From Sialis fuliginosa (taxonomy: Eukaryota; Arthropoda; Insecta; Megaloptera; Sialidae): a DNA stretch of 64,000 nt. This document shows positions 4,769-61,980 of the stretch, one piece after another (the stretch's first letter is position 1; each line of letters opens with the position of its first letter). The stretch is taken from contig OY540813.1 in assembly GCA_961205875.1 (NCBI GenBank), positions 30,847,001-30,911,000 of the forward strand, in the 5' to 3' direction. The translations under genes were made by a program, and so were the position numbers. Below the pieces are notes generated by a model that saw only the letters and a program-made list of their open reading frames with translations, did no database searches and was not told the origin of the DNA.

Positions 4769-5479
4769 GCAAAATTTTAAATGTAAAATAAGTTGAGCCA
4801 TTATAACATAAAACACCTTATTACAGTCCTGTAACGATGAGGTGAGCTCTCGACTCTAGCGTGCACTGGTATCGTGTGTTATCGGTAGTGGCCGTATGCG
4901 TTCGGGCGAGCTCGTGCGTGATGCTACACAATTGAATCGAAGTTGATGCTTGTTCTAAATATGTCCGTACGTACGCGAACGGGTAACTCGAACGGTATAT
5001 AACCTGAATTAATTTTCCATTTTATATAAAAATTAAATAGTATACAAACTATGTGTTTGTTTTATGATGGACTGCAGTTATTGCAGTTTAACATTTACAC
5101 ACTTTAGTTTCGTATCATAGTGATTTTAGTAATAAAATTGAATGTTCTATTTAATACTCGAAAGATACTTGTGCGAGTGTCAAAAATATTTTTTGTATTA
5201 ATGTGATTACATACTTACAGGATAATTGTACCTTTTATCAAGTGTTATAAACTAAACATATTTATTTATTTGAAAATGTATATAAAAATATAAGTGTGAA
5301 TCATTTTCATTTTATCAGTGAGAGTGGACAGGAGCGGATTCAAATATTTTAAATATTACTAAGTATTTTATTAGGTTATAGAAAACGCTGTATAAAAAAA
5401 TTCCGAATAATTCAAAGCAAATAATATTCCAAAATACATAAAGTCTACATTTTAAACTAAAATGATTGATTAAAATAAA
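4769..5479 (+). promoter_or_regulatory. Promoter-like region and 5' UTR of the MADF gene
   Basis: Between ~4835 and 5000 the sequence is much richer in CG dinucleotides than its surroundings (ATGCGTTCGGGCGAGCTCGT, CCGTACGTACGCGAACGGGT). A TATA-like GGTATATAACC follows at ~4993. Further downstream ATCAGTGAG at ~5317 could be an initiator. The start site itself cannot be fixed from sequence. The start codon context is AAAATAAAATGACT, with an in-frame stop just upstream. Confidence 0.45.
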
Positions 5480-5905
5480 ATGACTGGATCGTTAAGATTA
5501 AGAGGAAATATTAAATCGTTTATAAATTTAAATGAGCAAGAGTCACCTTCGAGTATACCGATGCGTTGGAACGACGAAAAAAATATTAAATTCATTCTTC
5601 TTTATAAAGAACAGTCATGCCTTTGGCAAATGGACTCTCTTTCATACAAAGATAAAGAACAAAGAGAAATCGCCTTACAAAAAATCGTTGAAGAAATGGG
5701 AATACCAGGATTCGAAGTACCTGACGTTAAAATCAAAATAAAGAATTTAAGATCGCATTATTGCCAAGAATTGAAAAAAATCAAAGACTCGAGATTGAAA
5801 AATCCGAATTCAACGTATAAACCAACACTTATTTGGTTTGAATTAATAGATGAGTTTTTAAGACCTTATGTTCACAGAAGTGGTGCATCTACAAAAGTTT
5901 CAAAG
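5480..5905 (+). CDS. MADF-domain protein, exon 1 of 2
   Basis: This exon encodes residues 1-142. Residues ~33-128 form a MADF (Myb/SANT-like) domain, with the family marks LLYKEQSCLW near the start, helix 2 (KEQREIALQKIVEEMG), the VKIKIKNLRSHYCQELKKI core and the closing YKPTLIWFELIDEFLRPYV. MADF proteins are mostly DNA-binding transcription regulators and a few are chromatin or dorsal-ventral factors; the target here is unknown. The exon ends AAG|GTAAAT, a good donor in phase 0, and joins in frame to the acidic/BESS exon at 9664. The start is the first ATG after an in-frame stop. A second, shorter frame overlapping this exon is a shadow. Confidence 0.92.
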
Positions 5906-6479
5906 GTAAATTGGTTAATATGGATCTAGAAACTGATTTATAGTTCATGGAAATCTGCACGCAGTTAATTTTTTACTAACAATAAATAAAATTAAAATAA
6001 GTAGATACCGTCCAGTGGCGGGTTATACAGTAGACACTTTAGGTAACTACCTAGAGGCCCGAGGTAAAAGGGGCCCCCAAATAGATGGTTTTGTTTTAGA
6101 TTAAAGCAATTGTAAAATGTGTTATTTAACATTAAAAAATGTTTCTTCAAAAATAAAAAATACAATTTTTTTTATGGGGACCTGGATTTTTTATTCTGCC
6201 TGCTGGTACTGTCATAGGGGACTACTTTGATAACAACTTCTATCGTTGACTTGAATTGAAATATCTCTTGACTTTTTTTTATGTAGGTATTATTTTATAG
6301 TCATTTAGTAATTTCTTTATATTGGTGTCATGGCGCGTTCTTGTACTAATGAGGTATTTTTTATTTTCTCATTTTTATTCTTAGATCATATACTATTCAA
6401 ATCTGCTTCAAAATGATATGGCTATCAAAATGATTCCTATGCATGGTGTAATAGTCCAGGCTATGGAGGCTTAAACAGA

Positions 6480-8332
6480 TTATTTTTGCGTACAGTTTTA
6501 ATACTTGCAGGATATGTTACAAAAGTAGTGTAGAATAATACCCTAAGTTTGCTTCGATTTTGGTTGTCCGCGACAGGAGTTAACTATGGTTAAATTGCAA
6601 AATTCTTCAGATTTTCTGATTTTTGCTAAATAGCGGTCTAAATAAATATTATACAAAAAAAAGTTTTTAATAAAAGTTATTCGTTACAAAATTCCCTACA
6701 ACCTCCATTTTGAAAAAAAATTAAAAATTCATTTGTTTATCCGCTACGCTGATTAAAATGGCGGAAAACACACTTTTTTTAAGCTGTAATAAATATACAG
6801 GCTGGGGCATTTAAAGTGTTATAGTTGATTATCTCAGAACCATCGCATATTTGAAAAAAATGTTTCAACCAAAAAATGTTTGGTTGTAAGGGGGTAATCG
6901 AATAGTAATATTTATTTGCTGTTTTAAAGTGGCCTTCAAGGATATTTGATGGTCAACACCATTTTTTTAAATAGGAACTTATAGTTTTTATTCAGTAATC
7001 TTATTCTACGTAAAAAAACACGAATCTTTCATTGAAAACTTTTTTTTGAACAACCCAAGCTTTCCAAGGTATCTAACAAAATAATTTGAGATTTTGAACT
7101 TTTAAGAATTTTTTACTCAGAAACCACAAACTTTAGAAAAAAAGTACAGGATACACAAAATATTTATTTTGGTCTAATAAAGCGTGGAGAATTATTTTAA
7201 AAATTTTAAAAACTTTTAAAAACTTTTTCTATTTATTTTATTTTAGCAAAAACAAAAAAAAGTACGAAATGTTAAAAAAAATCTAGAATAATTCTCCAAG
7301 TTTCATTACACCAAAATAAACATTTTTTGTATCTTGTACTTTTTTTCTAAAGTTTATGGTTTCTGAGTAAAAAATTCTTGAAAATTCAAAATCTCGAATT
7401 ATTTTGTTAGATACCTTGGAAAGCTTGGGTTGTTCAAAAAAAAGTTTTCAATGAAAGATTCGTATTTTTTCACGTAAAATAAGATTACTAAATAAAAACT
7501 ATAGGTTCCTATTTAAAAAAATGATGTTGACCTTCAAATATCCTTGCAGGCTACGTTAAAATAGCAAATAAATGATTCGATTACCCCCTTACAACCAAAC
7601 ATTTTTTGATTGAAATATTTTTTTCAAATATGCGATGGTTCTGAGATAATCAACTGTAACACTTTAAATGCCCCACTCTGTATATAATGGTTCTATGAAA
7701 CAATTGAATTGGTTTAAAATAATAAAAAACTCAACATTAAGATTTTAATGTAACCTTTTGCCAAATAATTGAAATTTTTTACTTTTTATGGTGGGAGTCG
7801 ATTATATAAGTCTTTGAGAACACAAACAGTTGTACAAAAATAAAAGTTTTACAAAATTTTTTATTGTTAATCAAAGACAAACATGATTCTATTATTAACA
7901 ATTTAATAAAACAAAAATTATTGAAGATATCAGGTCCTAATTTTCAGTGAATGTTCTGTACTACAGAATGTTTATTTTCCAGAGGTATCAACTTAAAAAA
8001 CGTTAAACTTTATTATTTATTACAGCTTTAAGTGTGTTTTCAGCCATTTAAATCAGTGTAGCGGATAAACAAATGATTTTTTTAATTTTTTTCAAAATGG
8101 AGGTTGTAGGGAATTTTGTAGTGTATAACTTTTATTAAAAACTGTTTTTTATATAATACTTATTTAGACCGCTATTTAGCAAAAATCAGACAATCTGAAG
8201 AATTTTGCAATTTAATAATTGAACCATGGTTCTCCTGTCGCGGACAACCAAAATCGGAACAAACTTAGGGTATTATTCTACACCGCTTTTGTAACATATC
8301 CTGTAAGTATTAAAATGGTACGCAAAAATGTC
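6480..8332. repeat. Foldback element B, 1.85 kb, with another foldback inserted
   Basis: Left arm ~6480-6795 and right arm ~8018-8332 are inverted copies: GATTTTGGTTGTCCGCGACA on the left answers TGTCGCGGACAACCAAAATC on the right. The loop originally was about 340 bp (7683-8018, AT-rich, no protein). Foldback A1 (6796-7682) is inserted at the inner edge of the left arm. Transcribed with the MADF intron, the arms would form a long double-stranded stem. Confidence 0.85.
6796..7682. repeat. Foldback family A, copy 1 (nested)
   Basis: The ends TACAGGCTGGGGCATTTAAA and TTTAAATGCCCCACTCTGTA are inverted, flanked by TA on each side. The arms are ~430 bp each, nearly identical, and meet at a short loop near 7240. 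Further copies lie at 33935-34795 and 36046-36747. Confidence 0.88.
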
Positions 8333-8506: not shown

Positions 8507-8957
8507 TCTATACTAATATTATAAATGCGAAAGTGTGTTTGTCTGTTTGTTACCTTTTCACGGCTAAATCGCAGAACCGATCTTGATGAAATTTGGCAGT
8601 GAGATTGATTGCATCCCGAGGATGGACATAGGCTACTTTATATCTCGAAAATTCAACCCCTAATGAATTGCAAGGGGGTGGAAAATTTTTAATTTTTTTT
8701 AGTAATTAATATTTTACTCCCCGTTACATATGAAGGAAGTGGTTTTATTCGATCCGGTGGAAAAATACTGCGGGGGTAGGGGAATCAATATATACGATTT
8801 TGTATAATGAAAGAAAACTAAAAATAAGAAAAATTTAATATTTCACCCCCTGTCACGTATGAAGGGTTGTAATTAGTTTTATTCGATCCGGCGGAAAAAA
8901 TGTTATGGGGATGGGGGTTTTGAAATCCACGCGAGCGAAGCCGCGGGTAGCAGCTAG
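8507..8957 (+). mobile_element. Non-autonomous Helitron, copy 1 (full length)
   Basis: It starts TCTATACTAATATTATAAAT, continues with the GCGAAAGTGTGTTTGTCTGT block and the conserved ATCTTGATGAAATTTGGCA, and ends GCCGCGGGTAGCAGCTAG followed by T. A TC 5' start, CTAG 3' end with a GC-rich hairpin just before it and no target duplication are Helitron marks. No Rep/helicase is encoded. Confidence 0.85.
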
Positions 8958-16086: not shown

Positions 16087-17337
16087 AGTATTTGCAACAC
16101 CAACTCTACTCGAAGGTAAAACAAAGGACTAATAGTACCCTTTCTTCACGCTAGAACACGCTGGTATCACTAAAATTGCACTTGACGTTCTGGCAGCTGT
16201 CAAGACCTACCGTGATCGTATCAAAATGTATTAACACCAAAAGTGTGAAAACGGTAGGTGGGTATAATAATGTAGGATATGTTTTAAGAGAGTTTGTGAA
16301 GTACGAGAGACGTTTCTTAAAAATTAATTTTTTATTTATGATAACTGCCAATATCTCGTTAATACTTCTGTATTAATTATTGAATTAAACAGTTTCGCCG
16401 AAATATGTAACAAATAATATAGTTCAGGGACGGGAAAATACAGCATTTTGATGTATTTTACCAATTATTAGTATAGTATTTACACATAAAATCAAGTTAA
16501 TAAATAGGCAGTTTTTCAAATAAATTCATTTCCTCGTTGTCTTTTCTTAATTAATGAAGAAAATTAAGGTATTTCTCGGAAAAATTAAAAGATTCAAGAG
16601 TAAGCTCAAATTTTGTAAAAAAAACTAAAAAAAGGTTATTAGAAGCTCCATTCAAAATCTTAAAATAATTGACCATCTGTGAGCGAATATATCGTCAAAA
16701 TAAAATAAAAAATTTAACATTGCGAGTATAATAGGGATTACATTTTAAGCAGATTTTCAACGAAAAAGTAAATAATTTTATGCGAAGGAAGATCAAGAAA
16801 TTTATGAAATTTTGAGAAAAACTAAATTAATATAATTGGAGTTAATATAAAAAATCTCAAATATTTTCACCACCCCGTTTTTAAGTTATAAGTAAAATAA
16901 AAACTTATTTTCTGATAAAAATATCACGGTACAAGTTTTGACAAGGCCGCAAATTGTTGACAATTGCCGCGCTATTTAAAAGTCGTACGTGCTGAATATA
17001 TTGTTCTTTTAATTTCAAGGAATAATAAAAACTATTTCTTAATTATAAACTTAAAATACACATATAATAAATTTAGCTGCAAATAACAATACACGTTATC
17101 ACATCAAAACATTAAATAATATGTAGCTGTCATCGGGAATACAAAAGTCGCGCATGCGCAATAGAAAATATATGCTCAACGTTGCCAAATTTTATTTTAA
17201 TTTATACCACAGTTATCTTGATTTTATACTACACTTTTTTTTCCTTTTCTTAAATATAGCGTACCTTGTTTCTCCCCGAGAAATACCTTAAATCAAAATT
17301 AGTAAATCTATAGTAAATAGATCTAAATCCATACTAA
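16087..17337. other. Intergenic, nothing recognised
   Basis: AT-rich. Open frames of 66 codons overlap on both strands near 16.2-16.4 kb and look fortuitous. No repeat ends identified. Confidence 0.45.
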
Positions 17338-17480
17338 TATTATAAATGCGAAAGTGTGTCTGTCTGTTTGTTATCTTTTCACAACTAAACAACTGAACCG
17401 ATTTTGATGAAATTTGGCATGAGGATAATTTGTATCGTGAGGAAAGACATAAGCTACTTTGTATCCCGAAAATTTATTAG
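17338..17480 (+). mobile_element. Helitron 5' fragment, copy 2
   Basis: Starts TCCATACTAATATTATAAAT after an A, and follows copy 1 through GATTTTGATGAAATTTGGCA and ACATAAGCTACTTTGTATCC. Similarity stops near 17480, so the 3' part including CTAG is missing. Confidence 0.8.
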
Positions 17481-17996
17481 ATAAAAAAATGAGTGTGTGG
17501 CATTTGTACGCGTGTAACTGTTTTACTTAACCGTCTTCATCTTCTTCATGGGTGACAGCTCCTACCTAACCTAAATTGTTAGGTTAGACGTTGATTAAAT
17601 GGGGACTTTATTTGAGATTACCATTATTCCTTTTTAAAATTTTCGTAAAGAGCGTAAACTAAAATCATATTTCGGCAGTAAATGAAATTTCATAAAAAAA
17701 TCGCGCTTTTATTTTGGTAACTATTAACACATAAATGAATTGAAATTAGCAATTATTATAAAAAATAGAAATGATTTTCTTGGATAGAAACAAATCTAAC
17801 TATACCTTACAATAAGCTGGATAATTAACCTATGTAAAAAAAATTATGATTAGAATTCTGTATGATTCTAATATAAAATATTTTCAAAAATAATACTTAA
17901 ATTATATTTGTTAATATAAAAAAAACACTCTCCACATTCCATAAAAACAACAAATAATTTAAAAAATAAAATATTTACTAAATAACTCTTAATGTT
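17481..17996. other. AT-rich intergenic, nothing recognised
   Basis: Contains a small hairpin, CTAACCTAAATTGTTAGGTTAG, at 17567-17588. No gene. Confidence 0.45.
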
Positions 17997-19339: not shown

Positions 19340-19750
19340 GAAAAAGTGCATTTTTGCCCCATGTGAGCACTAATAAAATCACCACGGAGTTAGTTTATGA
19401 AAAGTTAGATAGTGAAAGTGCAATTGGCAGACGCGTAGGGTGGGGATAAGGGGCAGGAAGACGCACTCAAAGATGCAATTTTTTTTTAAATTGCCCCATT
19501 TGAGCATTGATGAATTTTGGAGGGATGGCAGTTTTTGATCTGTAGATGACCGGAAAAACAAAGGCAGACGCGTAGAATGGGGATAAGGAACGAGCAGACG
19601 TACTCAAACATGCAATTTTTTAAATGAAAATTGTCTCATTTGAGCATTGATGAATTTTTTGAAGGATGACAGGTTTTGATCTATAGATGACCGAAACAAC
19701 ATTGGCAGACGTGTAGTGTGGGGATAAGGGGTGGGCAGACGCAATTGAAA
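19340..19750. repeat. Tandem repeat, about 135 bp x 3
   Basis: Three diverged units carry, in order, CATTTGAGCATTGATGAATT (CATGTGAGCACTAATAAAAT in the first), GATCTGTAGATGACCG (units 2 and 3), GGCAGACGCGTAG and GGGGATAAGG. Unit starts are near 19340, 19480 and 19620. It sits in the TMEM65 intron. No protein is evident. Confidence 0.75.
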
Positions 19751-23502: not shown

Positions 23503-23885
23503 TAATTAACCCTGGAACTCGATGACGTAAAAGTCTACTTATAATCAACCCTCTTTTAAAGTTGGACTGCATTGCTCTCTAAGGTCTAAGGTATTACGTG
23601 GCCGACTAATGTATTTAAATTTTAAAACCATGTCGTAATTCAATCATGTAAAAGGAAAACTCCAATAAGCACCAAACACCTACGCGTTCACATAACTGAC
23701 CAAGATACGTCGTGGCCGACCATAATTTCTTTTACCTACTGTTAATAAACTATTCCTACGTAATTAAATTATCTCGTAACTTAATGACGTATGTTATAGG
23801 GGTCGACTGCTTCCAGTCTATAATATTTATTGTATGGTTCTTTGATAAGTTATACCTACTCTATTATAAAACATTGATTACTTAC

Positions 23886-24089
23886 AAAATTAGCGACCAA
23901 TCTTGACGTCCTCATATCTAGCTGTATCGGCGTCAAGTTTGGAGATTTCACACCTATGTGGTTGGCCATTCTCTCCACGTAGTACGCAGACCCGATACCG
24001 AGAACGTCTGAGAACGTGTTACCAAGTGCAGCGGCCGCCATTGTAGATATACATAAATATGATCCTAAGTACATGTCTATATAGTCACC
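23886..24089 (-). CDS. TMEM65: TMEM65, internal exon (third from the end of those found)
   Basis: 68 codons between the acceptor ATGCTTTCAG and the donor GTAAGT on the minus strand, phase 0 at both sides. The peptide begins GDYIDMYLGSYLCISTMAAA and continues ALGNTFSDVLGIGSAYYVER, then PNLTPIQLDMRTSRL. STMAAAALGN-SD and PDLTP-Q-DM are hallmark stretches of TMEM65: a small-residue-rich membrane helix followed by the loop before the last helix. It contributes the middle membrane region. It joins the last exon to give VANF/GRVIG, as expected from the family alignment. Confidence 0.95.
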
Positions 24090-25550
24090 CTGAAAGCATA
24101 AATAATCATAGTTCAGAAACTTGTCAGAAATATGTAGATTTTATTACTTCACGCGAACGAACAGCCGATAGACAAGCAGTATCATCATCTACGACAATAA
24201 CTGAGAAACAGTCATTACAATAAGCGTTATTGACAAAAAAGGTTATATCCTCGAAAATTACTCTTAAAACGTTAAGAAATATTTTGCTTATATTCCTAGT
24301 TAGCGAGCGATTGTATTAAGCGAATTGGTTATATCTGTTGAGCATAATCAAATTCGACCGACTATTCGGCTCCAAAAATGAATCGAATTTAGTCAAAAAC
24401 ATTTTTTTTATTGTATAGATAGCGAAATATTAAAAAAAAAAAAAAATGAATAGCCACTTTTCAAAATGCCGCCATTTTTTAAATTTTAATTATTATTTTT
24501 TTGCAGCCCGCTATAGTCCAACTTATATATATATAAAGAAAATTAATGGTTTTGTTGGCCACCGATATAATTACAATAAAAATTACCTACATACAATATT
24601 ACATTATGTTTTTAATATTTCGCTATCTTTACACTAAAAAAAATGTTTTTGACTCAATTCTGCTAACGGTGGTAATAATATGTGTACTGAAAGTACACAG
24701 CAAATTTGAAGTCAATCGATTCAGTAGATCTTATGATATTATGGCTGCCATTTTCAGTTTTCAGTTTCCAGAAACACGCGTTCAAAGTTTATATATAGGT
24801 ATAGCTGGCTATTCAATGCTACTCATCATGTTCAAATCGCTGTAACTCCGTCAGTTTTTGGAATTGAGGTATAGGGTTTTGAACACATATTTTTGAAACC
24901 CTGTTTATTGATAAAATGCAAAAAAAGTTTTTGATATTTTCACATTTTTAGACTAGAATACCCTCTTAATTAATAAGCGAAAACGATTACTTGTATGAAA
25001 AGTTTTTTTTTTAAATTTATTTATTAAACTAATTGTAAAACCAAAAATGCAGAACAATTTCATATAAAATATTTCATATTTCAAAAATATCCCAAATAGA
25101 AATCGGCCATTTTAGCTTAAAAGAGGGTAGTATATCATATTCGACTTTAATGAGACAATATTTCAAACGAGTGACCTTTTTAGATTCACTTCAAATATAA
25201 TATTTGGACAGCAGTAGAGAGCTTCATGCTCCTCGACCTCTTTATATGTTATACCACAATTTGTAAATGGTTCGGTGTGTAAATACCACTACAATACAAT
25301 TAATTACATCGTAAAGAAATAATACGCAATGACAAATTCTTCTTCAATCAATCATCAAAGTTGACTTCACTAAATAGGAGCATATTTTAGTATGAGAAGT
25401 AGAAGTAATCAGTTTGGAAAATCGCAAGCTTACATAAATATTAATTACAATAATACGTAATACTTTAGCAAATACGTTCTTATTATAAATTAGCCCTACT
25501 GCAATTTCTTCGATTAAAACTGATTTATATAAGTAATAAATAATACTCAC
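24090..25550 (-). other. TMEM65 intron, 1.46 kb
   Basis: AT-rich. Contains a hairpin at ~24385-24660 (GATAGCGAAATATTAAAA against TTTTTAATATTTCGCTATC, and AAAAACATTTTTTTTA against AAAAAAATGTTTTTGA). Overlapping open frames are fortuitous. Confidence 0.85.
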
Positions 25551-29525: not shown

Positions 29526-30854
29526 GTAAGAAATCTATTTAACAATATAAAATAGATCAAGATCTTAAAAATGATGATCTTGTGCGTAAAATGTGTTTTT
29601 CGCACTCGAGTGATTGTTAGTCTTAGCTGGCACCTCGACTAACAAGCATCCACTTTCGAAAGAAAAATTGTCATTATACGCCCTAGTTACATAAATAATA
29701 ATTACCGATAACTACTAAACAATGCATCAAAGTGATTTCAAATTTTAATAGGTATAATGTAAATGTTTTTGTGATTAATAGAACCAACAAAGCACTATAT
29801 TGCCAAACAATAGATGTCTGTTTATTCACCCGTATATAGAACTTTTTTTGTAGGAAAATTACTAACTATATTTTTGATCTGATAAAATCAGTAAATAAGA
29901 AGATATTAACGAAAAACGCATTTTACATTGTTAAATTCATTCCATAATTTTTATAACTCGAAATTTTTATGTAGATTAAATGAAAGGATGTAAAATGTAC
30001 ATACCAAAATTCAACTAGCTAGGAATATAATCCTTAAGAACACTCAAATTACTGGATTAAACACAACAAATATATAACAACTAAAGTAACCCAAATCTAA
30101 TATTAATTCTCATTAAATTTGAAAAATGCAAAGTACGCTACTGTGTGCTAATATTTTCATACCGTTTACAAAATATAGATAAATAAAACACTTCAGGTAT
30201 TCCCGTGGGCCTTTCCGAAAATAGAATTGAAACTAAACAAACAGAGCTACCGGGTACAACATAGAAGACCTTTTCCCTTTCTTACCACATGAAAGGTAAA
30301 TTGACCTCAGCAATTCAAGATTCTCATCGTGGGGAAATTCAATTTACTGCAGTACAAACGTACAACGCATACGACACGGATTTACGAAAAAAGAGTCAGT
30401 GGCGTGCGAGTTGGTAACCGCTATTTATTATTAATACGTTTTTGATCTTTTAAATCCATCAGTACTGGTCGTTTTATGAACCTAATACAAGAGTTTATTT
30501 GCGGTATTAACCTGTGTATAATTGGTATCGGAAAAATGCTCCAAAATTTTAAAACAAAAAACTGTATTTGTTGATAAAATACTTCCGTAATTACAGCTTA
30601 TAAAAAAATGAAATGATGAATGATAGTTTAATAAATTGGTCATATACATTTTAAAGATTAAAAAAATATAACAAAAAGATTAACTTTATCATAAATAACA
30701 GATAAAAATATTACAAATTAGTTTTATAAATATATTTAAAACAATAAAGGATGTAGAAATAGAAACTACGATATTTAAGAATATTAATATTATTTCAAAT
30801 ACATGCAAATATTAGTTCTTATGTTTAAATTACATAACTAAATATTGATGTTAA
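29526..30854. other. Intergenic, nothing recognised
   Basis: AT-rich. The stretch 30190-30420 has more even base composition, but no open frame with convincing splice signals on either strand. Confidence 0.45.
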
Positions 30855-32380
30855 AAGGCTGTAGCCGGGTAAGCATGCAAAACATGCCTTTACATGGATT
30901 TGGCTGATTATTTTTTTGGAAGTCACATTCTATTAAACATTCAACCTGACCAAATATTAGCTTCCAAAAATTTATAGTTTTCGAAAAAACATTTTTTTTT
31001 GATTTAAAAAAAAAAAATTTTTTTTGATAATCTGTCAGTCAAATTTGATGGTGCTTGAAATATATTATAGAGGTACTTATGACTCATCAGAGGTAATTTT
31101 ATTATGATCCTCTGTACATAATAAACCAGAAAAAAAAATAATAAAATTTAAAAAATCAAAAAGACCATGTTGTCTTCGGAGGGCAATCACAATTTTTTTA
31201 TATATTATACCTTGTATGTACCCAAACAACATATCAAAATCCTAAATTGATACAAAGGGTATAACATACTCGTATAAATTCGCATGCGGTCGTATCGGAG
31301 TGGCGCGAGCGTGGCGCGGGCGAGTGCAAGTGTCTTAATACTTTTAAAATATCTCTAATTTGTTGCTAAACAGGACTGGGCTAGCCCAGAGACATATCAA
31401 AAATTTGACGGGGCCCATAGTCTGACAAAAACAAAATATAGAGGCCGTAGCCGGGAATATATGGGAACTGCTCCATTGAATTAATTTTACAATTTTTTTT
31501 CTCATAGGTGGCTTTTTAAGTAACAAAAAATCGCCCTTAATCGCTTAGAAATGTTTATAATCGACTTTAGTAGTAACAAATCACATTTCCGCTGTGAACT
31601 AGCGAATCTTCTTCCATTAAAAACTATAGACAAGATTATTTTTTTTAATAAAAATTATCTGAGCAAAAATGAATATATTGAAGCACAGACATTTAGGGCG
31701 ATTTAATTTTACTTAAAAAGCAACCTATGAGAAAAAAAATTGTTAAATTGATTCAATGGAGCAGTTCCCATATATTCCTGGCTACGGCCTCTATATTTTG
31801 TTTTTGTCAGTCTATGGGCCCCGTCAAATTTTCGATATGTCTCTGGGCTAGCCCAGTCCTGTTTAGCAACAAATTAGAGATATTTTAAAAGTATTAAGAC
31901 ACTTGCACTCGCCCGCGCCACGCTCGCGCCACTCCGATACGACCGCATGCGAATTTATACGAGTATGTTATACCCTTTGTATCAATTTGGGATTTTGATA
32001 TGTTGTTTGGGTACATACAAGGTATAATATATAAAAAAATTGTGATTGCCCTCCGAAGACAACATGGTCTTTTTTGATTTTTTAAATTTTATTAATTTTT
32101 TTTTCTGGTTTATTATGTACAGAGGATCATAATAAAATTACCTCTGATGAGTCATAAGTACCTCTATAATATATTTCAAGCACCATCAAATTTGACTGAC
32201 AGATTATCAAAAAAAAAAATTTTTTTGAAAATAAAAAAAATTTTTTTTTTCGAAAACTATAAATTTTTGGAAGCTAATATTTGGTCAGGTTGAATGTTTA
32301 ATAGAATGTGACTTCCAAAAAAATAATCAGCCAAATCCATGTAAAGGCATGTTTTGCATGCTTACCCGGCTACAGCCTTT
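30855..32380. repeat. Foldback family D, copy 1: 1.5 kb giant hairpin
   Basis: Ends AAAGGCTGTAGCCGGGTAAG and CTTACCCGGCTACAGCCTTT. The two arms are nearly identical over ~680 bp each, for example GTGGCGCGAGCGTGGCGCGG against CCGCGCCACGCTCGCGCCAC. Only ~150 bp in the middle (31550-31690) is unpaired. The end motif recurs inside at 31441 (GGCCGTAGCCGGG) and 31791, bounding an inner hairpin. Open frames in the two arms are mirror images and not convincing genes. Confidence 0.9.
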
Positions 32381-37862: not shown

Positions 37863-39353
37863 CCAGGGGTCGGCAACCTTTTTGTTCATATGGATACAAT
37901 AACAGATTTGAAAATCACGGAGGGCACATAAACACAAGTAACACTTTTTTAAACTTTGCAAACACGTTGTACATCGAAAAACATTAAATACTTATTTTTT
38001 AAATTTTGGCTAACAAAGCATGTTAAGGTTAGAAAACGCATTCGAAAGTTTACACCATTTAACACAATGCTAACTAACGCTACTCATGAGTGTCATTTCC
38101 TTATAGCTTTTACGACATTTCTCTATCATAATTTCATTGTTTGCGTGTTTTTGAGATCGCTTATGACGATTTTGACATTAGTTTAATGAGATTCAGAATG
38201 GAAAATATAAAATGATGAACAAAATCGCAGAAGTTTCAACAATTTTATTTAACACCACTTGCGAAGGTTATTAGATACATGATTACGATTTTGGCAACAG
38301 TTATATCAATCTAAAGATGAAAAATTCAATATGATACATCCAAATGGCGGAGACTGAGCAAACTTCTTAACAACTCCCATCTTTCAAATGACGGAAACAA
38401 TAAGTAAATCACGAATTTTAAGAAATTGAAGTTTATGAAGACAGGATTATTAGGTATTTTTAATGTTTCCAATTACACAATCTGACATATAGTGGTCGGG
38501 TATAGTATTATGACTATCTTGCCTTCACTCCTCTCATTGAGTACGTTTACACAGCGCCGTTATTCCGGTTTTATTATAACCGATGTAGTTAAACCATTTC
38601 AAGTGGTGCTATTTACACATACAAGAATAAGTGACGAATTATAATTCCGATTTGAAATACGCTATAAGTTCGATGGTGTACCAACAAGAAATCTCAAAAA
38701 TATTTTGTCTCTTTTATGTTCCACGAATCACGTTTCTTTTGTTTTCCATCTCTTTGTCTCAGGTGTTTTAACCATATTTTAACTAACAACGCTTTTTCAA
38801 ATGTTAATGCGAAGTGCATTACGATGAAATCCCTATACTCCGTAGATATTTATATTTTTTGAGGTTGGCTAAATAGGTATAACTATGTCCATGCAGTTTA
38901 CACGCATTTTTATTCCTGCTCTATTCCGGTTTACTTATGCTATTCCTGTAAACCAAGAGGAATAGCATAACTAAACCTGATTAGTTATGTCGGATGTAAA
39001 GTGCCGTTTACACTGACTTTTACACCCGGTTTTATTACATCGGTTATAGTTAAACCGGAATAAAAGCGGTGTGTAAACGTACTCATTGAATAGCATTAGG
39101 TTAGCATTGTGCTAAATGGTGTTAAAGTTTCGAATGCGTTTTCTAACCTTAAAACGCCTTGTTAGCCAAAATAAAAATAAAACACGTATTTAATGTTTTT
39201 CGATGTACTACGTGTGTGCAAAGTTTCAAGAATATCGGCGAATGGCACTTGAGTATTGTTACTTGTTAGAAGCATGAAACAAGATTCAAATGTGAATATC
39301 CAATGAGGGCGCATTAAAAATTCACCAGGGGCGCCGAGTTGCTGACCACACAG
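37863..39353. mobile_element. Decayed hAT element with an inner insertion
   Basis: The left end CAGGGGTCGGCAACCTTTTT is the classic terminus of Charlie-like hAT elements. The right end GAGTTGCTGACCACACAG is a degraded match. Subterminal segments are inverted (GGTTAGAAAACGCATTCGAA at 38030 against TCGAATGCGTTTTCTAACC at 39131). No transposase remains. Confidence 0.7.
38541..39082. mobile_element. Nested TIR element GTACGTTTACAC
   Basis: GTACGTTTACACAGCGCCGT and GCGGTGTGTAAACGTAC are inverted; subterminal TTATTCCGGTTTTATTATAA against AAACCGGAATAAAAG. TCATTGA is present on both sides, a 7-8 bp duplication whose exact edge is ambiguous. It is inside the decayed hAT at 37863-39353. Confidence 0.82.
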
Positions 39354-48204: not shown

Positions 48205-48975
48205 CTAAAATGGTAAATAGTATCAAAATATGTGCATACAAAAATACAACAATACAAAAAACAAATAAATGTGAGTATAGTCGGTATGAAATAAATTAAA
48301 CATAACATAAAATAAATTGATATGATGATAAATGATAACATAAAATAAATTAAAGATTTGATAATCTCTATATTTTTATATATAAAAATTAATGTTCGTT
48401 TGTATGAGGCTTTCAGATTCGGGAATTACTGAATTGATTTCAATGTAGTTTTCACCAATATAAAATCTAAGATTTAACATCAAAAGATTAAAAAATATAT
48501 AAAAACATAGTGCCTAACTATGGAATACAGAAAATTCTATAATTTACGGTTTCAGTATTTTATTAATTTAGGTCTTTATGATCACACACATGCTAACAAT
48601 GAAATATTTTGAAATATATTGATTGAAAATTGAAATATAAAGAAGCATTTGAGGGGTAAAATATCGAAATTAATTATTATGATTGTTGCTAACCTATTTA
48701 TTTATTTATTTTTGATTTTCATACAAATTTTAAGACAACACCTAGTGTTTCCTGGGAGTTTGAAAATTTAATTTTACACAATTTTCTCAATAACTACTAA
48801 ACGGATTGGATAGGTAAAGTTTATGAAGTCGGAAAAACAATTCACGGTGAATCGTGTGTTGTGGGCATGTTGGGTGGGCATGTCGGGTGGGCATGTCGGG
48901 TGGGCATGAAATTTAGGAGAAAATTTCAAATTTATAAGATGACAAGATTTAAAGTGCTTAGTTTTTAATCAAATA
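48205..48975. other. Degraded transposon with a 14 bp tandem repeat
   Basis: TTTATATATAAAAATTAATG at ~48375 and TAACTACTAAACGGATTGGA at 48793 are phrases of a widespread insect repeat. At 48863-48908 GGTGGGCATGTCGG is repeated ~3 times in tandem. No gene seen. Confidence 0.5.
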
Positions 48976-49374
48976 AAGGCTGTAGCCGGGTAGCAATGTA
49001 AAATCGGCCTCAACACGGATTTGGCTAATTTTTATTGTGAATGTTGCTCATTATGTGAGCATTCTCATTTATTAGCCTCTAAAAAATTATTTTCAATTTT
49101 TCAAAAATATTTTTTTTAAGAAATAAAAATATTACCTGATATGCACCTTTTCAACTTCTACATTGTACCATAGTTTGAACTTAATCAAAAAAAAAAATTT
49201 CTTAAAAAAAATATTTTTTAAAAATTGAAAATAATTTTTTTTCCAAAAACTGTCATTTTTTAGAGGCTAATAATTGGGCATGAGAATGCTCACATTATGA
49301 GCAACATTCACAATAAAAATTAGCCAAATCCGTGTTGAGGCCGATTTTACATTGCTACCCGGCTACAGCCCTTT
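48976..49374. repeat. Foldback family D, copy 2 (about 400 bp)
   Basis: AAAGGCTGTAGCCGGGTAGC and GCTACCCGGCTACAGCCCTTT are the ends; arms of ~180 bp (GGCCTCAACACGGATTTGGC against GCCAAATCCGTGTTGAGGCC), loop ~30 bp. Far shorter than copy 1, though the ends are alike. Confidence 0.88.
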
Positions 49375-51203: not shown

Positions 51204-52568
51204 TTTTATGCTACTTTAGAGTAATGAGTACTAATGAGTTAAATATAATCTTAAGAAGGACATTATAGTCTATTTAAAAAACTATTAATATTTTTCATAG
51301 GATCAAACATTAAAAATTATTATAAAAAGTAGGGCAAAATACTGACTATGGATGTTTATACATATTATAATGTTCAAAGTCCAACAACTAAACTAAAAAT
51401 ATAACCATCGTATTAAATTAACAAAAGTCGTAATTAATAAATCAACCCTTGTTCCGCAATTGATGATTATGTACCTGTGGGATATAGGACATTATGATTT
51501 TAATTTATTACATTAAATACTTATGATGAATATCTAGCTAGCATATCATGGCGAAAAAAAATGTACATTCAAACATAAAAATCAATTTTTGAATCGTTTC
51601 GAATATAAAAAATAGACAAAATAATCAGAAATATCTAAATGAAAACATCCATGGTCACTGAATATTAATATCGCCAGTTATTAAGAAATGCATCGATGTA
51701 AAATACCTTTTAAATTCCAATGAGCATTTAAAAATTCAAATGAATAATCGCATACCTTTTTTCGCTTTAACAACTACGTAAATAGAAAATAATTTTCAAG
51801 AGGTAGAGATACGAAAAATATATTAAATATTTAATGTAATCATTTCATAAAAAGAACAAGTTGAACCTGAGCGTAAATGAAAAGCTGAAAGTTCAGTATT
51901 ATGTATTTTTAAAAGTTTATAAATTTCATTAAATTGTTTGAAAAAGTCATTTTTTTTTAATTCTGATGATAATTTAATTACAGCAGAGGAAATGTTGAAA
52001 GTAATTAAAATATAAAATTCAAACATTTTTCATACACATGTACAACATACCTTAGAGTCATATACGTAATTTTAATTTTTATCTATTTTACTATTTTTGC
52101 TTTTGACTATATTGGAAATTAGCAATAATTACATATGCCCAGGTCCTGACAAAACTTCAATGGTGTCCGGGATAAACAACATTTCTGGGAGCCTATACCA
52201 CTCCGTTACGCGAGCGTAAAGAAATTCCTAACAAATTTTCTAAAATTTAGTAAATAAACAACTAAACACGTGAATTAATTACACAATCTGGATATGTTCG
52301 CAGATAGACAGTAAGATGATAAATATTTATGTAAAATATAAATAATTTTTCGAGGCGCCAGGGCCCGGGCCATATGGCCATAGGAGCCCCTCCCCCCTCT
52401 ACTTGGGCTTGTATGTACCCATGTATATACAAATATCAAACAATTTTATACCCGCGGAAACAATATCAAATAATATTATAACAAATTTAGTTGAAGCATT
52501 TTAATAAAATCAGGAGTTATTTAAAAAAAGTAGAAGTCTAATAAAAGCCAACCTTAAATACAAAATTA
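51204..52568. other. Intergenic; degraded transposon near 52.1-52.4 kb
   Basis: CCAGGTCCTGACAAAACTTC at 52139 and GAGGCGCCAGGGCCCGGGCC at 52353 resemble ends of a decayed hAT element. An AT-rich minus frame at 52026-51823 starts with ATG but has no recognisable feature. Confidence 0.45.
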
Positions 52569-53061
52569 AAGAGCATGGCAGGGTAAGCATGGGCGATCTG
52601 CCCCTGGGGAAAGTTGGGTCGATATTTTTTTTATAAAAAGGTATGACTAAAAGGTACTCTTCTACAAACTTAGTAGTATCATATCAATTTTTTTGAAAAA
52701 TCTCCCATCAAAAATACGTAGAAATTTTCGATTCCAAAATTTTCAAAAAAAATTTTTTTTGCTTAAATGACCTGATACACCTACGAAATTTTTTTCATAA
52801 ATACCCCTTATTATACACAAACACATATATTTTTTTCAAATTCCTACTTTGGGTGGACGGGGGGTAAAATTAAATATGTTTACTGGCCTCTATTTCTATA
52901 GTGGATTTGCATATTATGTAGTATGGTGGGTTTAAAATAAGGAATCTTTCGCGGATCGAAACGTAATAGTTCCTTCTCATTAATACATACATAAAGAAAA
53001 CGATTTTTTTGAAATCAGTCAATAAATATCTGGGGATTACGCATTAGGTCTAAAATTTCGG

Positions 53062-53245
53062 AAAGGCTGTAGCCGGATAGCAATGTAAAATCGGCCTCAA
53101 CACGGATTTGGCTAATTTTTATTTTAAATGTTGCTCTTTATGTGAGCATTCTCATGCCCAATTATTAGCCTCTAAAAGTTGATGGTTTTTGGAAAAAAAA
53201 ATATTTTGAATTTTTCAAAAAAAAAAAAATTTTAAGAATTTTTTT
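53062..53245. repeat. Half of a family D foldback
   Basis: AAAGGCTGTAGCCGGATAGC to GCCTCTAAAAGTTGATGG matches one arm of 48976-49374; the other arm is absent. Confidence 0.8.
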
Positions 53246-53499
53246 TGTTGATAATGTAGAAGTTGTTTTGGTTGTAGTTGAGCGACAACTTAAGATATTT
53301 CATGAAATAATCTTCATACTTTAATATTACACCCTACAAAGTCTGAAAAGAATCGAAGTGGTAGAACATACTTAAAAAAATTAAAATCATTGGAAGACAA
53401 TATTAACATGTACAAATGCTATAGAAATAATGTAATATAAAAATAATATAAAAATGATATAAAAACAGTTATTTAAATAAAATTAATTCGAAATATTCA

Positions 53500-53700
53500 A
53501 TAAGAACGCTTCTGTCTCCCATTGCTCGTTTGTTTTACAGTCTTGGACATACATACATTTCTTATAGTGATATACACATATTTATAGTCCAGGCCGCTAT
53601 ACATGAAATTGAGTTTCTTGAAGTACTTCGTATAACATTTTCCAATCAAAGCTATTAAGAGTATTTTGGCCCTGCTGAATCCGAAAATCGCTGTTACCAA
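53500..53700 (-). other. Open frame in the foldback N loop, possible coding remnant
   Basis: On the minus strand 66 codons read VTAIFGFSRAKILLIALIGK, then CYTKYFKKLNFMYSGLDYKY and a basic tail (KTVKQTSNGRQKRSY) to TGA. Codon use and residue mix are less A/T-biased than the neighbouring fortuitous frames. There is no ATG at its start and no clear acceptor. It may be a C-terminal exon, a captured gene piece or chance. I do not recognise it. Confidence 0.22.
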
Positions 53701-53839
53701 GCCGAAACATTGACCGGAAGTTCAATATGAAATATTTTTTGAAAAAATTAACATATTTGTTTAACAACATTGTTATATGCTACCCTTATGTGAAATTTAA
53801 AAATTGCCTCCTTTCTCCCTAAAATACAATTAAAACCCT

Positions 53840-55593
53840 TACTATGTACATTAGGGTGGTCGTTATTTCCCAAACTGCTCGGATCCTCGCTCCTACCCCC
53901 CAAAAAGTTAGTTTAGGACTATAAAAGAAGAAACCCGTCGCTAAAACTCCCAACAGTAGTCGCTAAACCCTGCCCGTTTTCAAAAAACCGTTTTTTCGCA
54001 TTTTTACGATGTTATATTCGATAATGCGTGATAAGGACGTTATAAAATTTTCCTAAAATTTTGTGGACAATTATATTTGTAGTATATTGAAGAAACTTTG
54101 TTTCTCTATCGTTTAAGATGCTTAAAAAAAATTTTTAACGTAAATATAACGTTCCAAATCCGGAAAAAAGCGAAAAATTAACCTTTTTTTGAGCTTTTTT
54201 GGAATTTTGAGAAATTGTCGAATTGTATTGGCCTAAACAAATGTTACTACATTAAAGTAGACTTTAAGACCTTTAATTTCCTTTTTTAAAGATGTCTCTA
54301 AGTGATTTAGGTGCCGAGATATAATTGTTTAAATATAAAAACAAAATTAAAAACGTAATCTTTTAACAACGAACTTACACTCATCCAAACAATTAAAGGA
54401 ACAAGAATTTAAACATTTTCTTTGTGAAAAATGGCCGTATCGAAATAAAACAAAAAGCATTTTAAAGCTTCAAGTTTCTAGTTTTGATATTGTTTAGCAT
54501 AATTTTTTTTGAATTACGGTTATCGCGCAATCAAAAGAAATAGTAGGACACAAAAATTTTCCAATTTTTAAAATATTTTTTAAGGGTCCGCGGGCTCGGG
54601 AAAATTTTTTTCAGATAAACCAATGCATTGGTCAGTTAACTTGTTTATTTAGCTTTAATTTGTTTTTTTTTTATTTAATCATAAGTTGCTGATATATTGA
54701 TGATCGAAGACAATAGAATCATTTTTAATTTAAAGTCAGATATCTCTATTGATAGAGACCAAAAAAAAAAAAAATTAAAGCTGAATAAGCAAGTTAACTG
54801 ACCAATGCATTGGTTTATCTGAAAAAAAATTTCCCGAGCCCGCGGACCCTTAAAAAAAATTTAAAAAATTGGTAAATTTTTGTGTCCCACTATTTCTTTT
54901 GATTGCGCGATAACCGTAACTCAAAAAAAAATATGCTAAAAAATCTCAAAACTAGAAACTTGAAGCTTTAAAATGCTTTTTGTTTTATTTCGATACGGTC
55001 ATTTTTCACAAAGAAAATGTTTAAATTCTTGTTCCTTTAATTGTTTGGATGAATGTAAGTTCGTTGTTAAAAGATTACGTTTTTAAATTTTTTTTTATAT
55101 TTAAACAATTATATCTCGGCACCTAAATCACTTAGAGACATCTTTAAAAAAAGAAATTAAAGGTCTTAAAGTCTACTTTAATGTAGTAACATTTGTTTAG
55201 GCCAATACAATTCGACAATTTCTCAAAATTCCAAAAAAGCTCAAAAAAGGTTTATTTTTCGCTTTTTTCCGGATTTGGAACGTTATATTTACGTTAAAAA
55301 TTTTTTTTAAGCATCTTAAACGATAGAGAAACAAAGTTTCTTCAATATACTACAAATATAATTGTCCACAAAATTTTAGGAAAATTTTATAACGTCCTTA
55401 TCACGCATTATCGAATATAACATCGTAATAATGCGAAAAAACGGTTTTTTGAAAACGGGCAGGGTTTAGCGACTACTGTTGGGAGTTTTAGCGACGGGTT
55501 TCTTCTTTTATAGTCCTAAACTAACTTTTCGGGGGGTAGGAGCGAGTATCCGAGCAGTGTGGGAAATAACGACCACCCTAATGTACATAGTAT
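53840..55593. repeat. Foldback M, 1.75 kb, near-perfect arms of about 830 bp
   Basis: ACTATGTACATTAGGGTGGT and ACCACCCTAATGTACATAGT are the ends. The arms stay almost identical to about 54672/54761, e.g. GGTTTCTTCTTTTATAGTCC on the right against GGACTATAAAAGAAGAAACC on the left, and TTCCCGAGCCCGCGGACCCT against AGGGTCCGCGGGCTCGGGAA. The loop is only ~90 bases. No protein is encoded. It sits within the loop of foldback N. Confidence 0.92.
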
Positions 55594-56397
55594 CTAAAAC
55601 CAACTGTTCTTATTGTATTTCTTTAACTTTAAAATAATAAATGAAGTAGAATTATGTAAAATATTATTCGTTTATAAGTACAAGGTTTTTTTAGGAGTGC
55701 CTAAACATTACATTATATTGCATTATATTATATTATTCTTATACATTTATATTAAAGACTTTGTAGGGTGTAATATTAAAGTATGAAGATTATTTCATGA
55801 AATATCTGAAGTTGTCGCTCAACTACACCAAAACAACTTCTACATTATCAAAAAAAAAATTAATGAGTAGGAACTATTACGTTTCGATCCGCGAAAGTTT
55901 CCTTATTTTAAACCCACCATACTACATAATATGCAAATCCACTATAGAAATAGAGGCCAGTAAACATATTTAATTTTACCCCCCGTCCACCCAAAGTAGG
56001 AATTTGAAAAAAATATATGTGTTTGTGTATAATAAGGGGTATTTATGAAAAAAATTTCGTAGGTGTATCAGGCCATTTAAGCAAAAAAGTTTTTTTTTTT
56101 AAATTTTGGAATCGAAAATTTCTACGTATTTTTGATGGGGGATTTTTCAAAAAAAATGATATGATACTACTAAGGTATAGCTACAACATATGTCGCAGAG
56201 ATCGACAGTTATAAAGTCATTACAGCAAAAAAATTTTTTTTTCGAAATTACATTTTTCATATTTCCCGGAAAATTAGTGGGCGCAGGGGTCCAAAAGTTT
56301 GTAGAAGAGTACCTTTTAGTCATACCTTTTTATAAAAAAAATATCGACCCCACTTTCCCCAGGGGCAGATCGCCTATGCTTACCCTGCCATGCTCTT

Positions 56398-57067
56398 TGT
56401 TTAACCTTTGTATTTTTAGATTTTACTCCGCATCGTTCTTGACGTTTCAACCAACATCTCGTGGTTTTCTTCAAAAAACCACAACCAAAAGTGCGGTTAC
56501 ACCCAAAAATACAAAGTTGAACATTCGTGAAAGTCTACTACATTAAACAACAAAGTACTGGCATTAGTCTGGGACAAGCACCAGTGTTGGACAATTGTTT
56601 TTAATTAAATGTACTAAACCAGAAATATATGTTGATATTTGATTACTGCCATTAGAAATCATATTCTATAGACACTTAACTGTAAATCAGTTTAATTTGA
56701 TGACAATCAGCCAGTGGGTGTCAAAATGGTGGACATTTAAACATCGCGGATGTAATCTTTTTATTAATTATTATATTATCATAGCAATTACTTTACATTA
56801 TTAAAATTTTACGATTCTTTATTTTATTATTTTTGTATTGTAGTACTTATCATTTTGTAATCATTAGAAAGCGTCCATTGATTTATTAGTAACATGAGTT
56901 CATGAGAATTACAAAAAAGAAGCCCATCAATCCCCAAAAATATTTACAGTGCTCTTAAAGCGTCCAAGAGTGGTGCCAGTGTATTATTATTGTACGTCAA
57001 AAATACTTCTAAATTAGTATTAAATGAAAACACGAACACGATGCCTTTGATTTCAACAATACGTAGG
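56398..57067. other. Intergenic, nothing recognised
   Basis: AT-rich with no repeat ends or coding frames. Confidence 0.45.
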
Positions 57068-61166: not shown

Positions 61167-61319
61167 TATCTAATCAATTTTTTGGGATACAAAGTGACCT
61201 ATGTCCTTCCTCAGAATGCAATCTCCCTACAAAATTTCACCAAGATCGATTCAGAGGTTTAGCCGTGAAATGGTAAAAAACAAACAGAGTTATTTTCGGA
61301 TTTAGAATATTAATATGGA

Positions 61320-61980
61320 TTAAAATTTTTTATAAAACAAATTAAATTTCAACGATGTGGAAAAACAAAACATACGATAAATCCACTGATATTTTAATAT
61401 CATGTTAAAAAAAATTTATTCATGCAAACATATTAAACAAGATGTCCCAAAAGGACCGAATCTCACAAGAGAATCTTTAGTCCATTCATTCGAAAATTAA
61501 AAGTGTCATTTGCATTTTATGTATATTTTGTATATGGAAGGACCGTTTCATCTCTGCGACATGCACACGTCCTACACACTTTAGTTATATTAATTTAAAT
61601 GCGACTGTATACGAAATTCACTCATAATTTAAATTCATCCTGTTGAATATATTTTAAATGTATTAACACATTTATTTTAATGGAAGAGAAAATTTTGTTA
61701 CGATATTATTTTCTTATTGTAAGATAAAAATAAAATTTGTTTTAAATACAGAAGTCTCTTTCTATGCGGTAGATAGGTTCCACAAAAAAACGCACACAAA
61801 ATATATTGTATAATTAGCATAAAACTCTGCATAAAACTAAAGCAATGAGTTAAAATAAATCGAAAATCGCATTAAAAATATAATGAAAATTCAAGAAAAT
61901 AGAATGTCTAAAAACACAATTGATTTGATACAAAACATAAAATAAGTTTGTATGTAAATTAATTATTTAATTTTATTGAA
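61320..61980. other. AT-rich intergenic
   Basis: No gene or repeat ends recognised. Confidence 0.45.

Follow-up and report, generated by a model that had tools for sequence, protein, structure and literature searches.

How did one long palindrome come to lie inside another at this locus, and why are the arms of each so nearly alike? We addressed both questions in a 64-kb window of Sialis fuliginosa contig OY540813.1, the whole stretch of DNA analysed here. The nest most likely reflects ordinary biology of foldback transposons, elements with long terminal inverted repeats. We judge it likely that non-autonomous DNA transposons of the foldback type, two of them and probably three, were inserted one into another.

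An inverted-repeat search within the window placed the inner palindrome, M, at 53840–55592 (1,753 bp). It lies in the loop of the outer palindrome, N (52568–56398), which confirms the nesting and the sizes given in a preliminary description of the locus. The left arm of M (53840–54672, + strand) aligns with the right arm (54761–55592, − strand) over 832 bases, with 22 substitutions (8 transitions and 14 transversions) and one indel base. The arms are 97.4% alike. Arm similarity ends at a loop of 88 bases (54673–54760), so that the earlier figures of ~830 bp for the arms and ~90 bases for the loop were correct. The arms account for 1,665 of the 1,753 bases, and the middle is short, as for a foldback-type DNA transposon. 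Beyond the arm ends, the next 100 bases show no inverted similarity (score 11.0, shuffle mean 12.6), and the ends are thus abrupt.

Five of five dinucleotide-shuffled windows contained no inverted match of at least 60 bases at E 1e-5 or better. When arms separated by fewer than 1,500 bases are considered, the real window has 18 inverted-repeat spans comprising 8,963 arm bases; some of these spans overlap, and one consists of two family A copies face to face. The loop of N exceeds this limit, which keeps N out of the count. A chance origin of inverted repeats such as M and N is therefore excluded.

The arms of N match in three segments, with 523 aligned bases and 12 substitutions in total. The outermost segment (52568–52671, + strand) pairs with 56295–56398 (− strand) and differs at 2 of 104 bases. 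The second (52672–52984, + strand) pairs with 55859–56171 (− strand) and differs at 9 of 313. The innermost (53237–53344 against 55756–55861) differs at 1 of 106 bases, with 2 further indel bases. Each arm also carries sequence that is missing from the other. On the right this is a stretch of 123 bases (56172–56294) with CTT at each edge on the − strand, which was either inserted there or lost from the left arm. On the left it is a stretch of about 250 bases (52985–53236 by BLAST; 256 bases in the MAFFT alignment). Its first 77 bases (52985–53061) are found on the left only, and a match of these to the family D foldback D1 (score 18.5, 5/200 shuffles) was set aside as T-rich. They are followed, from 53062, by a family D arm that begins with the D terminus. 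The loop around M, at 53345–53839 on the left and 55593–55755 on the right, lacks a strong arm partner. A weak inverted match between its two sides was also set aside, since 37 of 500 real stretches scored as well, against 2 of 500 shuffles.

By BLAST, the family D sequence in N matches one arm of the foldback D2 at 88.3% over 53062–53257, and the other at 81.5% over 53062–53231. The longer of these matches reaches 21 bases into the innermost N segment, where the bases are T-rich. A 13-mer, AATGTAGAAGTTG, is common to N (53253–53265) and the center of D2 (49152–49164), oriented alike with respect to the arm; in D2, about 20 extra bases precede it. None of 5000 shuffles reached a length of 13 (largest 11), in a test that was post hoc, the 13-mer having been seen first in the alignment. 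A longer local alignment of the innermost segment with the D2 center was not significant (25/200 shuffles as good), and neither were its alignments with D1 (61/200 and 24/200). From the D match running to 53257 and the shared 13-mer, we favor, with moderate confidence, assigning the innermost "N" segment to a D-type foldback, D3, as its inner part. The left arm of D3 would span 53062–53344 (+ strand), a family D arm to about 53257 and then the innermost N segment. Its right arm would survive as a remnant at 55756–55861 (− strand), which abuts the second N segment and would have lost its outer ~175 bases. If this assignment is right, the nest probably has three layers: N, a D-type foldback, and M. 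The preliminary description had the left arm of N taking up half of a family D foldback. The D match stands, and the wording is probably wrong, because the D arm seems to run on into the innermost segment. At its very end, N resembles the D1 terminus (score 15; 1/1000 shuffles as good) and shows no resemblance to the D2 terminus (677/1000).

The ends of M permit more than one reading of its insertion. The symmetry of M starts TACTATGTACATTAGGGTGG on both sides, and its outermost two bases are TA at each side. This is compatible with the TA duplication of Tc1/mariner elements, but it comprises two bases only. Flanking M on both sides, at a distance of 2 bases, is a direct repeat of 7 bases, TAAAACC, for which the probability by chance is 0.0024 with this slack. 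The duplication at M thus has three competing readings: TA, the self-palindromic ATGTACAT, and TAAAACC. Elements of the hAT superfamily make an 8-bp duplication of the form nTnnnnAn and have terminal inverted repeats (TIRs) starting YARNG. The succession of ATGTACAT and TAGGG at M fits both of these features. The symmetry extends 4 bases further out than ATGTACAT, so the hAT reading requires a palindromic target of 16 bp. For Galileo and the P element, target motifs are described that are palindromic and reach past the duplication (PMC4168063). For N, the search for a target-site duplication gave nothing convincing; the one candidate, the 6-base AACCTT, sits at unequal distances from the two ends. 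The flanks of D1 and D2 yielded none.

Weak inverted symmetry continues past the sharp ends of N, at 52467–52567 and 56399–56499. With about 100 bases on each side, 2/2000 shuffles and 0/2000 real stretches score as high (0/500 shuffles in a separate run). At 200 bases the counts are 0/2000 shuffles and 8/2000 real stretches, and at 500 bases the symmetry is not significant (387/1000 shuffles). It could represent an older palindrome that hosted N, the limit of a conversion tract at the edge of N, or chance. A simple insertion account leaves it unexplained.

Repeated foldbacks are common in this window. Family A is present at three places, family B at two, and family D at two in addition to the piece inside N; singletons occur as well. 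The family D foldback at 30854–32380 has arms of about 690 bases that are 97.1% alike and a loop of 149 bases, and no target-site duplication was found for it. Just before D2, at 48861–48908, lies a tandem array of 3.7 copies of a 13-base GC-rich unit, GTGGGCATGTCGG; another array, at 19423–19743, has 2.3 copies of a 141-base unit. A short repeat occurs three times (8507–8653, 17326–17483 and, inverted, 61167–61321). Its first two copies begin near ATACTAATATTATAAATGCGAAAGTGTGT, a start that presumably recalls the widespread Helitron-like repeats of insects.

Foldbacks lie within foldbacks at other places too. At 6482–8329, outer arms (6482–6795 and 8014–8329) surround the family A copy A1 (6793–7689), which starts at the end of the outer left arm. 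A foldback at 37945–39232 holds a second inverted pair (38534–38595 and 39028–39089), the right arm of which overlaps the edge of the outer right arm. By our own tally of 17 foldbacks, in which the units are not independent and the counting was post hoc, 3 lie in loops of others (p 0.04 against random placement), or 4 if D3 is counted (p 0.0065).

No second copy of M was found within the 64-kb window, where its arm matches nothing else. Exact-match scans of viral contigs with M, D, and A patterns gave no loci, except for one M terminus with 2 loci. A scan of genome contigs with an M terminus gave 4 loci. The six lie on contigs that are prokaryotic or from the viral collection; their local matches to M or to the left arm of N, of 17–54 bases with a best E of 0.005, were taken as chance. 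The left M arm had no blastn match in a phage collection. The absence of M copies from these collections says little, because they are not collections of animal genomes. Rfam gave no match at gathering scores. N contains no complete open reading frame of at least 75 amino acids; one such frame crosses its right end. A Pfam scan covered 12 of the 47 such frames in the window and found no transposase among them. Two matched, a MADF-domain frame and a TMEM65-matching frame, at 5474–5929 and 23856–24137 (− strand). With these two frames the window has the look of animal DNA, and MADF points to an arthropod.

The near-identity of the M arms had been ascribed to either very recent birth or ongoing arm-to-arm gene conversion. 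These can be told apart where a foldback exists in more than one copy. We counted informative sites at which the four arms of two copies split two against two, with gapped columns dropped, for the pairs A1/A2, A2/A3, B1/B2, and D1/D2. For A1 and A2, which are inverted relative to each other, all 23 sites link corresponding arms of the two copies. For A2 and A3, 10 of 11 sites link corresponding arms, one gives the other cross-copy pairing, and none links the arms within a copy. All 9 sites of B1 and B2 link arms across copies. The arm differences of the A and B foldbacks, the two families with closely related copies in the window, thus predate their spread, since informative sites run across copies only, and no homogenization has occurred since the copies separated. 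D1 and D2 behave in the opposite way: 45 of 45 sites link the arms within a copy. The two arms of D1 are 97% alike and those of D2 92%, against about 65–67% between copies, and the arms were thus remade or converted between these subfamilies. This grouping within copies means that conversion or remaking over longer times is not excluded. Taken together, the arms seem to be made alike at rare events, at or near the birth of a subfamily, and then to decay.

The differences between the M arms show no significant patchiness (longest difference-free run, p 0.12; dispersion among bins, p 0.14). They are denser toward the loop: the outer halves of the arms have 5 of the 22 and the inner halves 17 (p 0.017; seven arm pairs were tested). 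A2 is likewise denser near its loop (9 outer, 23 inner; p 0.02), and the other five pairs show no such excess. If the M arms were identical at birth, the 2.6% difference corresponds to about 1.3% change per arm. A synonymous rate of 0.016 per site per million years is given for Drosophila (PMC4168063). At this rate, which may not be that of the host, M would be less than a million years old, again if its arms were identical at birth. The choice between very recent birth and ongoing conversion is thus half borne out. A near-perfect birth fits the data, but 2.6% divergence is not extremely recent, and ongoing conversion is not seen in families A and B.

Two further readings are compatible with a transposon origin and can coexist with it, so that our confidence in each is not exclusive of the rest. 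In one, gene conversion between arms maintains the similarity seen in M and N, and the elements are older than a divergence of 2–3% suggests. The 45:0 result for D1 and D2, with arms at 97% and 92% within a copy against about 65–67% between copies, speaks for it. It would also accommodate the missing target-site duplications of N and D1 despite arms of about 97%, the weak inverted symmetry past the sharp 98% edge of N, and the 17 of 22 M differences in the inner halves. Ongoing conversion is disfavored by the A and B controls in the window, M itself being single-copy here, because their pairs gave 23, 11, and 9 sites across copies and none within a copy. The M differences are without significant clustering, and N retains stretches of 123 and about 250 bases in one arm only. 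We regard this reading as unlikely. In the other, M is a transcribed hairpin RNA (hpRNA) locus, and Dicer-2 processes its stem into siRNAs. The structure predicted for M contains 831 pairs at −1300 kcal/mol, and there is a precedent for transposon-derived arms in hp-ODox2 of Drosophila simulans (BS2/Jockey), as reported in PMC10317233. Like the Drosophila hpRNA loci, M is a long inverted repeat, and any transcript of it would fold. Those loci are recognized by transcripts and Dcr-2-dependent siRNAs in the account of PMC10317233. The longest uninterrupted helix predicted is 175 bp. The expectation of one of the longest perfect RNA stems was thus overstated for a structure that is 97.4% paired; the arms are almost identical, as had been described, but with 22 substitutions and one indel the stem is not perfect. 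Differences that retain a wobble pair are not favored (3 of 22 on the + transcript, 5 of 22 on the − transcript). Selection on RNA pairing is not supported by these differences, there being no sign that pairing is kept. Transversions exceed transitions, 14 to 8, and the M arm has no other match in the window. An hpRNA role for M appears very unlikely to us.

Alternatively, N and M might be simple inverted segmental duplications, formed through template switching or annealing between repeats and never mobile. N has no clear target duplication, M is single-copy in the window, and the formation of fold-backs from inverted repeats is described in yeast (PMC6103520). Yet foldback families with repeated copies occupy the same 64 kb, and N shares a terminal motif with D1; we consider such an origin quite unlikely. 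Unresolved foldback reads can produce inverted duplications, and the palindromes might be artefacts of this kind from assembly or library preparation. This is barely credible given an arm difference of 2.6% that includes transversions and an indel, different one-sided stretches in the two N arms, and the recurrence of families A, B, and D at separate places.

For the favored origin, successive insertion of foldback transposons, the arms, loops, nesting, one-sided stretches, and D match are observed directly, and the order of events is what we infer from them. N would have inserted first. A D-type foldback probably then landed in its loop and may later have lost its right terminus together with the neighboring loop. 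M would have landed in the loop that remained. A transposase encoded at another locus presumably mobilized each palindrome in trans. Each may have been born nearly arm-perfect, with repair or foldback synthesis using one arm as the template for the other, and the arms would have decayed by ordinary mutation since.

Drosophila foldbacks such as Galileo (P superfamily) and Tetris (for which Mutator is proposed) are described with very long TIRs, a middle domain that is non-coding in most copies, and other transposable elements inserted; in Galileo, another element can sit inside one TIR (PMC4168063, PMC4079207). M and N are likened to them by this description, sharing very long TIRs, a non-coding middle, and inserted elements. 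They differ in that no transposase is seen among the frames scanned here, and Tetris has a tandem array, whereas none of that kind is reported inside M. The aphid LTIR-like Tc1/mariner elements Apismar5 and Lsra, which are described as having TIRs of about 460 bp, exceed 2.3 kb and encode a DD40D or DD41D transposase, and Tc1/mariner elements target TA (PMC5490172). Also by description, M resembles them in having long TIRs in an arthropod and TA as one possible reading of its ends. It differs from them in being nearly all arm and non-coding. Miniature inverted-repeat transposable elements (MITEs) share with M its non-coding, TIR-bounded form and, in the proposed reading, mobilization in trans. 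The 1.75 kb of M is large for a MITE, and a second copy was not found in the window.

The grouping of arms by copy or by arm is a simple test that separates conversion from recent birth. Here two families group by arm, which is evidence against ongoing conversion, and a diverged third groups by copy. One further idea is that arms are remade perfect only at the birth of a subfamily and not during later amplification, with new foldbacks preferring to land in existing loops and so building nested palindromes. We hold this to be speculative and, as a whole, rather unlikely. If the preference for loops is real, it would explain the build-up of long nested palindromes. Applied genome-wide, the arm-grouping test could tell when and how often the arms of foldbacks are remade.
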